From: Sediminivirga luteola
GTDB lineage: Bacteria > Actinomycetota > Actinomycetes > Actinomycetales > Brevibacteriaceae
Length of the DNA stretch: 64,000 nucleotides
Reading direction: 5' to 3'
Assembly: GCF_014639315.1 (NCBI RefSeq)
Contig: NZ_BMFY01000016.1
Coordinates: forward strand, 1-64,000
Position 1 is the first letter of the stretch. Every line of letters starts with the position of its first letter. A program made the translations under genes and the position numbers. The notes under the pieces were generated by a model. It did no database searches, was not told the origin of the DNA, and saw only the letters and a program-made list of their open reading frames with translations. Below are positions 25,705 through 31,092 of this stretch, one piece after another.

Positions 25705-27240
25705 TCACGCGAGGGGCCAGGTGTGCACCGGTTCGTTCCCCCACTGCCGTTCCAGATAGGTCCCGGTGATCGTGGCGAGCGCCTCGCGCCTGGGCTCGGG
25801 CACCGGCACGGGGTCGTCGCCCGGTTCCGCGCCGCCGGCCGCCCGGTCCAGGCGGAGGCCCCCGTCCAGTCGGTCCAGGGAGTCCAGCAGCCAGCGGGAC
25901 CCGTTCATACCGGTCAGCGCCCGCTCGCGGACGATGCCGATGTAGCGGTCGATCAGGTCGGCGTCGACGCCGATGGCCGCCAGGCCCTCCGCCGCCTGCG
26001 GGATGAGCACCTTCACCAGCAGCTCGCTGACCGGGACGGTGCCGGCGCGGGGCCAGAAGACCTGCGCGTCCAGGCCGTGCTTGGCGCATTCGAAGAAGTT
26101 CTCGCGGGCGGTGCTGAACGACATCCGCGACCATAGCGGCCGCGCCTCCGAGGCGAGGTACCTGACCAGGCCGTAATAGAAGGCGGCGTTCGCGGCCGTG
26201 TCGACCACGGTCGGCCCGGCCGGCAGCAGCCGGTTCTCCACCCGCAGATGGGGCCGGTCCTCCCCAGGCACGTAGATGGGCCGGTTCCAGCGCCAGATGG
26301 TGCCGTTGTGCAGCAGCAGCTCGTGGATGGTCGGCGCGCCCGACTCGGCCCGCTCATCGGCGCCGGCGTCTTCCTTGGATTCCGGCAGCAGCGCCGGGAA
26401 GTAGCGGACGTTCTCCTCGAACAGATCGAAGACGCTGGTGATCCAGCGTTCCCCGAACCACACGCGGGGCCGCACCCCCTGGTGCACCAGTTCCGGGGGA
26501 CGGGTGTCGATGGCCTGGGTGAACACGGGGATCCGGGTCTCGTGCCACAGCCGCCGCCCAGCGAACAGCGGGGAGTTGGCCGCGAGCGCCAGCTGGGGCC
26601 CCGCCAGAGCCTGCGCGGCGTTCCAGGTGCTGGCGAAGTCGCCCGGCGCCACCTGAAGGTGGAGCTGCACCGAGGTGCAGGCGGATTCCGGGGCGACGCT
26701 CTCGGCGTAGAAGTCCACGGACTCCTCGCCCTGGATGCGGATCCGCACGTCCTCGCCGCGGGCCTCCAGCACCGAGGAGTTGAGCGCCTCGTAGCGCCGG
26801 GCCGGGCTCATCCACTCCGGATGGGAGAAGAAACCGGCTTCCAGGGTGGGGAGTATCCCGGCGGTGACCAGTTCGATCCCCTGCCCGCGAGCGGTGTCGC
26901 GGGCAGCGTGCAGTCGCCGGGTGAGCCCCTGTTCCAGCTCCTCCAGTCCGCGGCCGGTGACATGCAGCACCGGGTGGTTGAGCTCGATGTTGTAGGCGCC
27001 GATCTCCGCCTGGAACTCCTCGCCGAGCTCTTCCAGCAGCGCGATGTTCCGCAGCGCTGGCGCGTGCGGGAAGGCCCGGTCGGCCAGGTTGATCTCCATC
27101 TCCAGCCCGATGGTGCCCTCGCCGGCGAACTCCGCCTCCTGCAGGTACCGGTCGAAGGCCTCCAGATTCTCCTGGAGCCGTTCGCGGTAGCCGGTGCGGT
27201 CTTTCCGGGAGAACGACTCCGAGGTGATCTCATCGCCCAT
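25705..27240 (-). CDS. GCS2-family glutamate-cysteine ligase-like enzyme
   Basis: A 511-residue carboxylate-amine ligase of the GCS2 superfamily. The N-terminal GTIGLEMEINLAD carries the acidic metal-binding residues, and HLQVAPGDFASTWNAAQ, ANSPLFAGRRLWHETRIPVF and HLRVENRLLPAGPTVVD match the ligase core. The family couples ATP hydrolysis to a gamma-glutamyl or similar amide bond. Actinobacteria use mycothiol, so classical glutathione synthesis is not implied; a gamma-glutamyl-cysteine or other ligase role is open. I start at ATG 27240, where homology begins; longer in-frame starts overlap the promoter of the divergent HAD gene. Confidence 0.82.
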   Translation of the reverse strand: MGDEITSESFSRKDRTGYRERLQENLEAFDRYLQEAEFAGEGTIGLEMEINLADRAFPHAPALRNIALLEELGEEFQAEIGAYNIELNHPVLHVTGRGLEELEQGLTRRLHAARDTARGQGIELVTAGILPTLEAGFFSHPEWMSPARRYEALNSSVLEARGEDVRIRIQGEESVDFYAESVAPESACTSVQLHLQVAPGDFASTWNAAQALAGPQLALAANSPLFAGRRLWHETRIPVFTQAIDTRPPELVHQGVRPRVWFGERWITSVFDLFEENVRYFPALLPESKEDAGADERAESGAPTIHELLLHNGTIWRWNRPIYVPGEDRPHLRVENRLLPAGPTVVDTAANAAFYYGLVRYLASEARPLWSRMSFSTARENFFECAKHGLDAQVFWPRAGTVPVSELLVKVLIPQAAEGLAAIGVDADLIDRYIGIVRERALTGMNGSRWLLDSLDRLDGGLRLDRAAGGAEPGDDPVPVPEPRREALATITGTYLERQWGNEPVHTWPLA

Positions 27241-27376
27241 GAAGAAAGCAAACCACACCAGCCGTGACCGTCGTGCATGCGGGAGGTGTGAATGCGCTGA
27301 ACCGCCGGGCCAGGCCAGGGGCGCATGCGTAGAGTGGAGGTATCCCTGCTCGGACTCCACGCCCGAAAGAGACGAC

Positions 27377-28153
27377 ATGCCTGCAGTCAGCACCACAGTG
27401 CCTGATCCCTCCCGCCGGTACCGCGCGGTCATCCTGGACATGGACGGGGTGGTCACGGATACCGCCAGCGTGCACGCCCTGGCCTGGAAACAGCTCTTCG
27501 ACGAGGCGCTCTCGCAGATCACGAGCACGCTCCAGGCGCCTTTCGACGCGGTGCACGACTACCTGAACTATGTGGACGGCAAGCCGCGGACAGGCGGTAT
27601 CGAGAGCTTCCTGGCCTCCCGCGGGCTGCGGGTGCCACCGGGCAGCCCGGACGACGAGCCCGGCGTGCTCACGGTGCACGGCCTGGCCGCCGCCAAGCAG
27701 GGGTACTTCCAGGCGATCCTGGAGCGGGACGGCATCGCGCTGTTCGGTTCCACCGTGGAGCTGCTGCGCGTGCTGCACGCCCGGGGGGTGCCGCTGGCCC
27801 TGGTGAGCTCCTCGAAGAACGCCACGGCGATGGTCCAGCAGGCCGATCTGGAGAAGTACTTCAGCCGGATCGTGGACGGCAACGAGGCGGCGCGGCTCGG
27901 GCTTCCGGGCAAGCCCGCCCCCGATATGTTCGTCACCGCCGCCAGGGACCTCGGAGTCGAGCCCGCGGAGGCGATCGTGGTGGAGGACGCCATCTCCGGC
28001 GTGCAGTCGGCGAAGGCCGGGGGCTTCGGGCTGGTGATCGGCCTCAACCGCGAGGGCGCCGCCGAGCGGCTGGCCCAGGCCGGCGCCGATGTCGTCGTCG
28101 GCGATCTGGCCGAGCTCGACGTCGCCGCCCTCGTGGTGGCGCCCGGGGAATGA
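27377..28153 (+). CDS. HAD-family hydrolase of beta-phosphoglucomutase type
   Basis: A 258-residue HAD with motif I LDMDGVVTDTA, motif II LVSSSKN, a conserved Lys in LPGKPAPDMF, and motif IV VVEDAISGVQSAKAGGFGLVIG. The cap domain fits the beta-phosphoglucomutase-like subgroup, which isomerises beta-glucose-1-phosphate or dephosphorylates sugar phosphates. No trehalose or maltose phosphorylase lies beside it, though the GH13 gene is 17 kb away. It begins 136 bases from a divergent ligase gene. The stop overlaps the ATG of the ion channel (ATGA), an unexpected pairing. Confidence 0.88.
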   Translation: MPAVSTTVPDPSRRYRAVILDMDGVVTDTASVHALAWKQLFDEALSQITSTLQAPFDAVHDYLNYVDGKPRTGGIESFLASRGLRVPPGSPDDEPGVLTVHGLAAAKQGYFQAILERDGIALFGSTVELLRVLHARGVPLALVSSSKNATAMVQQADLEKYFSRIVDGNEAARLGLPGKPAPDMFVTAARDLGVEPAEAIVVEDAISGVQSAKAGGFGLVIGLNREGAAERLAQAGADVVVGDLAELDVAALVVAPGE

Positions 28154-29190
28154 CGGCTGCAGGTTCCGCGCCGCGGCGCACCGTTCGCGGCCGCGTCACG
28201 GCTCTGGTCGAGTCCGCCCGCTTCCAGACGTTCATCATCGGCGTCATCCTGATCAACGCCGTCATCCTGGGCGTGGAGACCTACGAGGGGCTGCCGGCCG
28301 GGGTGACCCGGTCCCTCGGCTGGTTGAACCACGTCGCCGTCGGAATCTTCGTGGTGGAGATCGCGCTGCGGATCTACGCGCACCGGGGGAGGTTCTTCCG
28401 GGACCCCTGGGGCTGGTTCGACATGCTCATCGTCGCGGTGGCTCTCATCCCCGCCACGGCCGGCGGCGAGGTCTTCCGGGTGCTGCGGGCGCTGCGGATC
28501 CTGCGCCTGCTCTCCACCGTGCGGTCGATGCGGATGGTGGTCGGCGCGCTGCTGGCGTCACTGCCGGGCATCGCGTCGATCAGCGGGTTGCTGCTGATGG
28601 TGATGTACATCTACGCGGTCATCACGACCAGCCTGTTCGCGCCGGCCGAGCCCTACCGGGACCTGGGCATGGCTTTCGCCAGCCTGTTCCGGCTGCTGCT
28701 GGGCGACGGCTGGAGCGATGTGGTCGTCCCCGTGGCCACCACGCCGTGGGCCTGGTTGCTGTTCATCAGCTACTCGGTGATCACGACCGTCATCGTGCTC
28801 AACCTGCTCATCGCGGTGGCCGTGGAGGCCATGGAGCGCTTCAAAGAACGGGAGCGGGCAGGGACGGCCGAGGGCGGCGCTGCTGAGCTCAGCTCCGGGA
28901 CGGACGGCATGCTGGGGGACGGGCGCGATGCCGGAGACGCGGAACTGCTGGCGGAGGTCCGCGCCCTTCGCGCCCAGCTGCACCGGCTGGAGTCCCGGCT
29001 CGATGCGGCTGTGAACGTTCCCTCGCAGCTCGCGCATGAGGCGGGTATGACTCCCCCGGCGAGCCGGGCGGGGACCGCGTACGAGGGCTCTCCGTCTCCG
29101 GCGAGCAGGCACGACGGCCCGGGCGAGCACGGTTCCGTGGGAGACGAATTCCGCTCCCAGTCAGGACCAGCACACCCAGGTTCCCGGTAG
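28150..29190 (+). CDS. Voltage-gated cation channel, single-domain NaChBac-like
   Basis: A 346-residue six-helix channel. S1-S4 span about residues 22-130, with S4 reading FRVLRALRILRLLSTVRSMR, an Arg at every third position. The pore segment is SLFRLLLGDGWSDVVV, then S6 ITTVIVLNLLIAVAVEAMERF. The C-terminus holds a short heptad stretch (LLAEVRALRAQLHRLESRL), as in bacterial Nav coiled coils, and a disordered tail. The filter LGDGWSD departs from the usual TLESWS and keeps the Gly and final Asp that I recall from the Ca-selective CavMr filter. Translation is coupled to the HAD gene. Confidence 0.88.
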   Translation: MTAAGSAPRRTVRGRVTALVESARFQTFIIGVILINAVILGVETYEGLPAGVTRSLGWLNHVAVGIFVVEIALRIYAHRGRFFRDPWGWFDMLIVAVALIPATAGGEVFRVLRALRILRLLSTVRSMRMVVGALLASLPGIASISGLLLMVMYIYAVITTSLFAPAEPYRDLGMAFASLFRLLLGDGWSDVVVPVATTPWAWLLFISYSVITTVIVLNLLIAVAVEAMERFKERERAGTAEGGAAELSSGTDGMLGDGRDAGDAELLAEVRALRAQLHRLESRLDAAVNVPSQLAHEAGMTPPASRAGTAYEGSPSPASRHDGPGEHGSVGDEFRSQSGPAHPGSR

Positions 29191-29580
29191 CGACAGGCAG
29201 CGACGCTCCACGAGAGCCTGCGCCCGGTGGCGGGCCCGCGCCCGGTTGGAGGCCTGGGCCCGGTGGCGGCACAGCCCATCAGGTTGCGGACCTGTGCCCG
29301 GTGACGCCACCGCCCGCCAGGATTGCACGGTCTCGACAGCGGCAGGGCCCGAATGGCTGGTGCCGACCGCGGGCGCTCCGGTAGGGGTTCCTGCCACGCA
29401 TTCCGGCAAGCTGCCCTGCATCTCCTCGGCATGCCCCGGTATACAGCGCTCTCACCAGGAAAAACATGCCTTGCCGCAGGCCTTGCGCCGGTCTATGTTT
29501 AAGGAGCCGGACGGATGGCGCCGGTATGGCCTGAAGGGCGCGCATCGGCGCGAGGCTCTTCTTCCAGACAGGATCCGCAC
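29191..29580. other. Intergenic region with degenerate repeats
   Basis: 390 bases without a credible gene. Between about 29215 and 29310 the phrase CCTGnGCCCGGTGnCG occurs three times, plus a partial copy, at roughly 36-38 base spacing. A TATGTT near 29495 could be part of the promoter of the following surface protein; this is weak. Confidence 0.4.
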
Positions 29581-31092
29581 GTGAAGAATCGCATATTCGC
29601 CGCCGCCGGCGTCACCGCCCTGGCAGGACTGCTCGCTTTCCCCTTGACCGCCATGGCCACGCCGGCTCCGGATGCCCCGGCCACGACCACGCCGGGCACA
29701 ACCACCCCGGGCCCGGACGCGGAAGTCCCGGGCCCCGCGGCGGCTGGCCCCGCCGATGAGTCCTCGGCGCCGGGGGAGACCGCACCGGCTGAGCCGCACC
29801 GCACCATCAATGACACCCCTGGCGCTCTGACCGCCCCCTTGAGGCTGGCGGAGGAAGTACTCTCAGACGACGGGTTCGATATCACCGCCGAGTGGGGCGA
29901 GTTCTGGCTGGACATGGAAGCGGAGTACGAGCGGGCCGAGCTCAACCGCGACGGCCTGACAGTCTCCTTCCGCGACGCCGACGACGACGCGGTCGTCCCG
30001 GATGCGGAACCGGAGTTCTCCTTCGTCGAGTACACCGAGGCGGACGACTTCGACTACCAGGAGACCCCCACCGACCGGTTCGTCCCGGCCGGCGGCACCG
30101 GCGACAGCTGGACGTTCACGCCCGCGGAGGAGTTCCCTGCCGGGTATGAGGGCTTCTTCGGGCTGAGCGCCGTGGTCGTCCTGGACGGCGAGGAATGGGA
30201 GTTCTGGTCGGACTTCTACGTCTTCGACGCCGAGACGGTCTTCTGGGTGGAGGTCGATCCCGAGCTGCTCAGCCCGGGCCGCCTCGCCCAAGAGGGCGTG
30301 AGCCTTGCGCTGCGGGACTACTGGGACGAGCCGGTGGACGCGGCTGCCGATTACAGCTTCTTCGGCTTCGACGACGAGACGGAAGAGATCGTCGAGCTGG
30401 ATGAAACGTTCGTCCAGGACGGCGGCACGTTCACCGCGGAACTCCCGTCGGACTACCAGGCTCCGGTGTTCGTCATCGCGCAGTTCTCGCAGAGTGAGGA
30501 ACCGCGCTCGGCCCTTGGCGTCTTCGATGTCGCGAGTTACCTGATGACCATCGACCCGTACGAGTTCACCGTGCCGGAACTGGCCGAGACGGGCGTGACG
30601 GTGCAGATCGACCCGGTGGATGCGGCGGTGGCGCCGGCCGGCTCCGCTGTGGACTTCGTCTTCGAGGCCGACGTCTATGACGAAACGAGCGACGAGTACG
30701 AGTGGCGTGATGTGACCGGGCTCTTCAGCCACGTTCCCGGCACCACCTGGACCTACACCGCTGAGCTGGACGAGGACTTCGAGGGCTTCATCGATGTCAC
30801 CGCCGTCCTGGACGCAGAGGCAGGACAGTTCACGCTGTGGGACTGGTTCTACGCCGAGCCCGGTGAAGCGAGCGCCTCCCCCTCCCCGGCTCCGCCGTCG
30901 GCCGCGCCCGAGGACGATGCGAGCCAGGCCCCCAGCGCAGCTCCGGAGACCGAGAGCCCGGCTGCCCCGGGCGGGCAGGCGCAGCAGTCCCTGCCGCGTA
31001 CCGGCACCGGGCTCGGACCGCTCACGGCCGGGCTGGTCCTTCTGGTCCTCGGACTCGGCGCTCTGCTGTTGACCCTCCGCCGCCGCGCCTAG
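29581..31092 (+). CDS. Acidic LPRTG wall-anchored protein with three beta-type repeats
   Basis: 503 residues. A signal peptide (IFAAAGVTALAGLLAFPLTAMA) is followed by a Pro/Thr-rich stretch. Next come three repeats of about 95-115 residues, each with a strand starting like GLTVSF, GVSLAL or GVTVQI and an ending like GFFGLSAVVV, FVIAQF or GFIDVTAVL. A Ser/Pro linker, LPRTG near residue 471, a hydrophobic helix and RRRA complete a sortase signal. The repeats are extremely rich in Asp and Glu. No known domain is recognised; an Ig-like adhesin or cation-binding surface protein is possible. The start is GTG 29581 behind AGGA. Confidence 0.85.
   Translation: MKNRIFAAAGVTALAGLLAFPLTAMATPAPDAPATTTPGTTTPGPDAEVPGPAAAGPADESSAPGETAPAEPHRTINDTPGALTAPLRLAEEVLSDDGFDITAEWGEFWLDMEAEYERAELNRDGLTVSFRDADDDAVVPDAEPEFSFVEYTEADDFDYQETPTDRFVPAGGTGDSWTFTPAEEFPAGYEGFFGLSAVVVLDGEEWEFWSDFYVFDAETVFWVEVDPELLSPGRLAQEGVSLALRDYWDEPVDAAADYSFFGFDDETEEIVELDETFVQDGGTFTAELPSDYQAPVFVIAQFSQSEEPRSALGVFDVASYLMTIDPYEFTVPELAETGVTVQIDPVDAAVAPAGSAVDFVFEADVYDETSDEYEWRDVTGLFSHVPGTTWTYTAELDEDFEGFIDVTAVLDAEAGQFTLWDWFYAEPGEASASPSPAPPSAAPEDDASQAPSAAPETESPAAPGGQAQQSLPRTGTGLGPLTAGLVLLVLGLGALLLTLRRRA

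Follow-up and report, generated by a model that had tools for sequence, protein, structure and literature searches.

How a homotetramer tells calcium from sodium is not a settled question (PMC10120453). The locus described here raises this question for a bacterial channel whose selectivity filter reads LGDGWSD. The window, a stretch of 64,000 nt from Sediminivirga luteola, contains a gene (28150..29190, + strand) for a single-domain voltage-gated cation channel of 346 aa, of the bacterial sodium channel (BacNav) type. Its filter is nearer to those of calcium-permeable sperm channels than to those of bacterial sodium channels, and the actinobacterial channel group represented by this gene probably lets calcium in.

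The original prediction of a voltage-gated BacNav-type channel at this place was confirmed. The ATG at 28150 is the first ATG/GTG/TTG past the last in-frame stop, and the codon-position GC of the ORF (0.69/0.51/0.90) is a coding pattern resembling that of two neighbouring genes, which encode a HAD hydrolase and a glutamate-cysteine-ligase-like (GCL-like) protein. The product matches PF00520 (Ion_trans) with an E-value of 3.7e-42 and a score of 144.6 bits (cut-off 25), the single Ion_trans match in the genome (3.86 Mb, 45 contigs). The AlphaFold model has a mean pLDDT of 81.8 and a pTM of 0.60, and its helices were assigned to S1-S6, a pair of pore helices and a further helix at the C-terminus. 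The best Foldseek match of the model in the PDB is CavAb (5klb, 4.7e-15); VIA-align superimposes it on NavAb (6mvy) with a Z of 19.5 and an rmsd of 3.0 over 219 residues, with 37% sequence identity over 219 residues. The Ion_trans domain with S1-S6 and the NavAb-like fold thus place the protein in the BacNav type. Four-domain Cav and Nav channels rank first in PDB sequence searches because their repeats add up, and this rank is not read as a sign of kinship.

The fold, voltage sensor and pore of the predicted channel are intact. Specifically, the voltage-sensor domain S1-S4 (residues 23-123; 28216..28518, +), helical in the model, contains N36, E43, E70 and D91, which are conserved in 123, 118, 126 and 126 of 126 aligned rows, respectively. 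The S4 gating arginines R110, R113, R116 and R119 (28477..28506, +) are each present in 126/126 rows, so that the S4 arginines of the BacNav type and the countercharges E70 and D91 are in place. In the model, the P1 pore helix (residues 172-183; 28663..28698, +) precedes the filter, and S6 with its cytoplasmic extension (residues 201-245; 28750..28884, +) forms a helix that contains N218, invariant in the 126 rows. Residues 260-288 (28927..29013, +) are helical in the model and predicted to form a coiled coil; from L266 to A287, 7/7 heptad core positions are hydrophobic in one register, and this helix is likely to be the tetramer bundle. From the coiled coil and the single channel gene found in the genome we infer a homotetramer. 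The analysis itself shows the gene, its predicted fold, the intact sensor residues, the filter and the clade; voltage gating, ion preference and physiological role are deductions, as the tetramer is.

The selectivity filter, L184 G185 D186 G187 W188 S189 D190 (28699..28719, +), was assigned from the sequence and the alignments, and the pattern GDGWxD occurs once in the whole six-frame translation of the window. In the numbering of PMC7041947, positions 1 to 7 are Leu, Gly, Asp, Gly, Trp, Ser and Asp. As originally predicted, the key Glu is replaced by Asp, which is followed by Gly, and a terminal Asp is kept. The channel resembles NavAb and NavMs in predicted whole fold, voltage-sensor residues and C-terminal coil, but five of its seven filter residues depart from the NavAb filter TLESWSM, and its post-filter stretch is one residue shorter than in 47/47 rows with TLES (43 of which read SMG). 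Because the filter is LGDGWSD, and not the TLESW of sodium-selective BacNavs, the channel is not filed as a sodium channel. Its fold and sensor are those of a BacNav; its filter is not the sodium filter of that type.

Among the published filters compared, the nearest are those of CatSper3 (TVDGWTD) and CatSper4 (TQDGWVD), followed by that of CavMr from Meiothermus ruber, reported as 183-TLEGWVD-189 (PMC7041947). With filters alone compared, the window channel shares Asp, Gly, Trp and Asp at positions 3-5 and 7 (DGWxD) with CatSper3/4, which carry Thr1 and Val2 or Gln2 in place of Leu1 and Gly2; moreover, these are eukaryotic proteins that act as one channel of four different subunits (PMC7041947), whereas the genome examined here has its one Ion_trans match. 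CavMr, of the ancestor-like BacNav group, shares the single-domain prokaryotic build, Gly4 and the acidic Asp7, but has Thr1, Leu2, Glu3 and Val6 where the window channel has Leu1, Gly2, Asp3 and Ser6; this comparison covers build and filter. By this measure the acidic and glycine pattern of the window channel is that of CatSper3/4, and also that of CavMr save for Asp in place of Glu. The CavMr filter had been given correctly in the original prediction, which missed the nearer CatSper3/4 filters. The text of section 13 of a review (PMC10120453) gives Glu for CatSper2/3/4 and Asp for CavMr, whereas the sequences in PMC7041947 show Asp in CatSper3/4 and Glu in CavMr. The engineered calcium filter of CavAb and CaChBac, TLDDW(S/A)D (PMC7041947), has Asp3 and Asp7 in common with the window channel, with Asp4 and Leu2 there against Gly4 and Gly2 here. 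In PDB sequence searches the TLEGWVD of Cav3.2 aligns with LGDGWSD without gaps, and Gly2 is present also in one Cav1.1 repeat, TGEDW.

The original prediction had proposed a phylogeny of actinobacterial filters, and this shows that LGDGWSD is no one-off. A review (PMC6259924) reports one-domain channels from both proteobacteria and actinobacteria. Proteins of relatives were excised by script, with the start codon guessed and written as M. Loci L001-L003, L023-L028 and L102 were dropped first, being weak matches or duplicates of the window locus or of the place of L015. Next went L063 and L097-L101, which are partial or weak, and proteins with the same sequence across residues 41-200, which left 126 rows. 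A careful tree was built from 85 of these with the filter columns removed and a midpoint root, and 'clade' here means one side of a branch in this sample. The tree omits many proteobacterial rows, the TLESWSEA group, the near-copy L014, and distant rows whose filters read TLENFP/TLENLP, SLETLP, TLDG(L/I)GD, TMEGWQD and TLEDWTD.

The closest relative found, L029 from Microbacteriaceae, carries LGDGWPD, with an identity of 63% in the scan and 67% in the alignment, and pairs with the window channel at 100/100 in the 85-row tree. Relatives at about 43-56% carry VADGWAD (Cellulomonas), ISDGWPD (Demequina), LGDGWPD and IGDGWTE (further Microbacteriaceae), [I/T]GDGGLGD (Phytoactinopolyspora) and TGDDWAN (Aeromicrobium and Nocardioides). 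The window channel lies in a 24-row actinobacterial clade (99/98) nested in a 48-row clade (100/94) made up entirely of actinobacterial rows. Position 3 is Asp in 24/24 rows of the inner and 42/48 rows of the wider clade, position 2 is one of Gly, Ala and Ser in 24/24 and 43/48, and position 4 is Gly in 16/24 and 27/48; position 7 is acidic in 27/48 rows of the wider clade. In the 16-row subgroup of the window channel, with weaker support of 90/83 (96 in a quick tree), Asp3 and Gly4 are each present in 16/16 rows, with an acidic residue (Asp or Glu) at position 7 in 15/16. The filter of this subgroup is mostly [LITV][GAS]DGWxD, a putative Asp ring that replaces the sodium filter TLESW, which is found in nearly all non-actinobacterial rows sampled. 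A separate actinobacterial group of nine rows, with TLDSW or TLDNW, also has Asp at position 3; this label needs four changes on the 85-row tree, and the starred branches force at least two. L092, with a NavPp-like TLEDWTD filter, falls outside the window's clade in the quick tree, but on a long branch; neither tree includes CavMr or NavPp.

The distribution of the channel is patchy. It was found in one of 60 genomes of the window's family, namely its own. Of the 396 genomes in the order sample, the window's own among them, 25 have a match at E<=0.001; 19 of these reach 4.4e-43 or better, and the remaining six matches are weak and short. In the class sample, 78 of 394 genomes match a subgroup profile, a count that includes other subfamilies; 20 of the matches for which the profile scan gave no locus, hand-picked and mostly weaker ones, have one TGDSWGE, four TLDG(L/I)GD and 15 Glu filters. 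The patchiness suggests loss or transfer, between which the GC content (channel 0.697, window 0.703) does not decide.

The original prediction called the channel one of a little-studied kind, and this agrees with the literature search, in which LGDGW, TGDGW and TADGW were not found and TGDDW appeared once, in an unrelated cancer paper. The search, which left most subscription-journal papers outside its reach, also returned no description of these actinobacterial filters and no electrophysiology of any clade member.

A calcium-permeable, probably calcium-preferring pore is the best reading of the channel and, in our own estimate, somewhat favoured to be right; permeability to calcium is likely, and strict selectivity for it is uncertain. 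The gene would produce a homotetrameric cation channel of the BacNav superfamily opened by depolarisation. Four Asp186 side chains would form the high-field site, Gly187 would keep the filter entrance wide, Asp190 would form a second acidic ring, and Gly185 would leave a cavity beneath the filter. Jointly, these four residues would favour divalents over sodium, so that opening would admit Ca2+ to the cell through a pore that prefers calcium and need not be strictly selective for it. By analogy with characterised channels, several features argue for calcium. Gly4 is reported as the key to the calcium selectivity of CavMr, the change D4G confers divalent selectivity on NavPp, and filters swapped between these two channels yielded current (PMC7041947). 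Asp7 is shared with CavMr, CaChBac and CavAb, where NavAb has Met181, and Asp3 with the engineered TLDDW(S/A)D filter. Replacing Met181 by Ala in NavAb lifts PCa/PNa from <0.05 to 0.36, a value that does not reach 1 (PMC12919392). The 'beacon' rule, by which Gly after the high-field residue (D or E) predicts calcium selectivity (PMC10120453), the DGWxD pattern equal to that of CatSper3/4 and the gap-free alignment with TLEGWVD of Cav3.2 point the same way; the same review notes that Glu rings make sodium channels in one-domain bacterial channels and calcium channels in four-domain ones. In addition, Asp3 is constant in the inner clade (24/24) and Gly4 in the subgroup (16/16), where position 7 is acidic in 15/16 rows, and the filter columns had no part in the making of the tree.

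Other features speak against calcium. In CavMr, Asp7 is reported to be dispensable and Val6 to matter (PMC7041947), whereas position 6 is Ser in the window channel, and in the wider clade Gly4 and an acidic position 7 are each limited to 27 of 48 rows. Gly4 is not sufficient for calcium selectivity because the NavAb mutant S178G has a reported PCa/PNa of <0.01 (PMC12919392). The calcium preference originally predicted thus stands as the best reading, and was put too strongly as a deduction from the motif alone, from which it does not follow because an Asp-site channel of Bacillus, NsvBa (TLDSWGS), is non-selective and NavAb with Gly4 excludes calcium to the extent just given.

NsvBa does not discriminate among Na, K and Ca, and this property travels with its filter (PMC4225499), which raises the alternative that the window gene encodes a voltage-gated non-selective cation channel, permeable to Na and K and partly blocked by Ca, in which the Asp ring has lost sodium selectivity without gaining calcium selectivity and the cavity at Gly185 traps Ca. 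We regard this as doubtful, though a serious contender. In NavAb, Gly at position 2 (L176G) opens a cavity and loses about half of the current at 40 mM Ca, a partial block, so calcium could block, and not permeate, an LGDGWSD pore (PMC10349818). In line with the alternative, the NavAb M181A mutants are termed non-selective by their authors (PMC12919392), and the nine TLDSW/TLDNW rows of the other actinobacterial group have Asp without Gly2 and Gly4. The high-field Asp, however, is what NsvBa and the window channel share, whereas Ser4 and Ser7 there are Gly4 and Asp7 here, as in CavMr and CatSper3/4. The change of Glu to Asp at position 3, cited as lowering the sodium selectivity of NaChBac in E192D (PMC4225499), also bears on whether the protein could be a sodium channel like the canonical BacNavs, with filter changes that amount to tuning only. 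The NavAb-like fold and the prevalence of TLESW in the non-actinobacterial rows would suit such a channel, but positions 1-4 and 7 all depart from TLESWSM, and we consider it very improbable. Hardly any weight is given to the view that the gene is a relic, either non-conducting or leaking protons, or an acquired gene in decay, which the confinement to one of 60 family genomes would favour: its sensor residues, filter, S6 Asn and coiled coil have been preserved, the frame is undisrupted, and LGDGWPD is the filter of the closest relative found (67% identity).

On the calcium-permeable reading, a wider and more tentative proposal, plausible but short of probable, is that Actinomycetota hold a whole clade of native voltage-gated calcium channels, built as homotetramers, in which an Asp ring flanked by Gly (xGDGWxD) provides a route unlike that of CavMr. 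CavMr is described in a 2026 paper as the only identified prokaryotic Cav (PMC12919392); if the proposal is true, the clade would be a second native prokaryotic class beside it and would offer one-gene models of the CatSper3/4-type filter. The natural series LGDGWSD, VADGWAD, ISDGWPD, TGDDWAN, TADGWGx and TGDSWxx forms a panel that separates positions 2, 3, 4 and 7, and would test the 'beacon' rule (PMC10120453) on Asp-ring channels.

The gene upstream of the channel (27377..28153, +) encodes a HAD hydrolase of the beta-phosphoglucomutase family (TIGR02009, 162.6 bits, cut-off 153.35), which does not reach the cut-off of the equivalog TIGR01990 (111 against 189.4). Its stop codon overlaps the channel start by 4 bp in ATGA (28150..28153, +), and this may couple translation of the two. 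The overlap noted in the original prediction is real, but the two genes do not stay together across the loci searched. In tblastn (E<=1e-3) against 121 channel loci, some genomes being represented twice, with flanks of about 1.5 kb or, at other loci, up to 5 kb, HAD was found near the channel at the window's own locus and as two weak matches only, at L055 (opposite strand) and L043 (about 4 kb away). The idea of HAD as a meaningful functional partner of the channel was rejected, the sole strong match among the 121 loci being the window's own. Beyond the window, the seven best HAD homologues (50-56%) come from 6 of the 38 other genomes searched and sit in open frames 1075-1227 aa long. Matches in the remaining genomes are weaker or shorter, and some of them occupy frames of a size to stand alone. 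The homologue tested, L134, has GH65 domains behind HAD, and L135, L136 and L138 look alike by eye. Given this association with GH65, and two GH65 matches found elsewhere in the window's genome on other contigs, the HAD protein is most simply taken as a companion enzyme of a sugar phosphorylase, with a HAD gene that happens to end in the channel start codon.

The divergent GCS2-type GCL-like gene lies further upstream (25705-27528, - strand); the true start may lie downstream of the listed one, since relatives match from about 27240, the point at which the query of that search began. Homologues were found in 9 of 11 other genomes searched, and tblastn found neither HAD nor channel beside these nine within flanks of about 1.5 kb (less in two). 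As far as these searches reach, the pairing of HAD and channel seems peculiar to this genome: apart from the two weak HAD matches, it recurs neither at the other channel loci among the 121 nor at the nine GCL-like loci. At L029:4282-5813 the channel starts 11 bases behind a purQ-like gene, and its close upstream neighbour is thus unlike that of the window channel; purQ was rejected as a shared neighbour, since it matched no other of the 121 loci. For the neighbours of 17 relatives only tblastn results were relied on, a crude gene caller having missed the channel in 4/17. Downstream, the protein of 29515-31092 (+) has no Pfam match and carries an LPxTG-like sorting signal by eye (LPRTG, hydrophobic stretch, Arg tail). 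PF01699 (Na_Ca_ex) is absent from the window's genome and present in 11 of 14 control genomes.

Several unusual pores were encountered among the relatives. In the alignments, the [I/T]GDGGLGD pores are one residue longer and have Leu in place of the usual Trp, an odd native pore; they occur in Phytoactinopolyspora channels (L032:4962-5861, L033:4941-5885, L037:4953-5930 and L048:4977-5978) and in L103-L107 and L111. Distant actinobacterial channels (L145-L148, from genomes G744, G467, G549 and G620) have TLDG(L/I)GD, with a high-field Asp and without Trp. CavMr-like Glu-Gly filters are present in a Hyphomicrobiales channel (L083:1393-2223, TLEGWAGD) and in one from the window's own order (L022:1447-2439, TMEGWQD), and on the strength of these motifs both are possible further native calcium channels.
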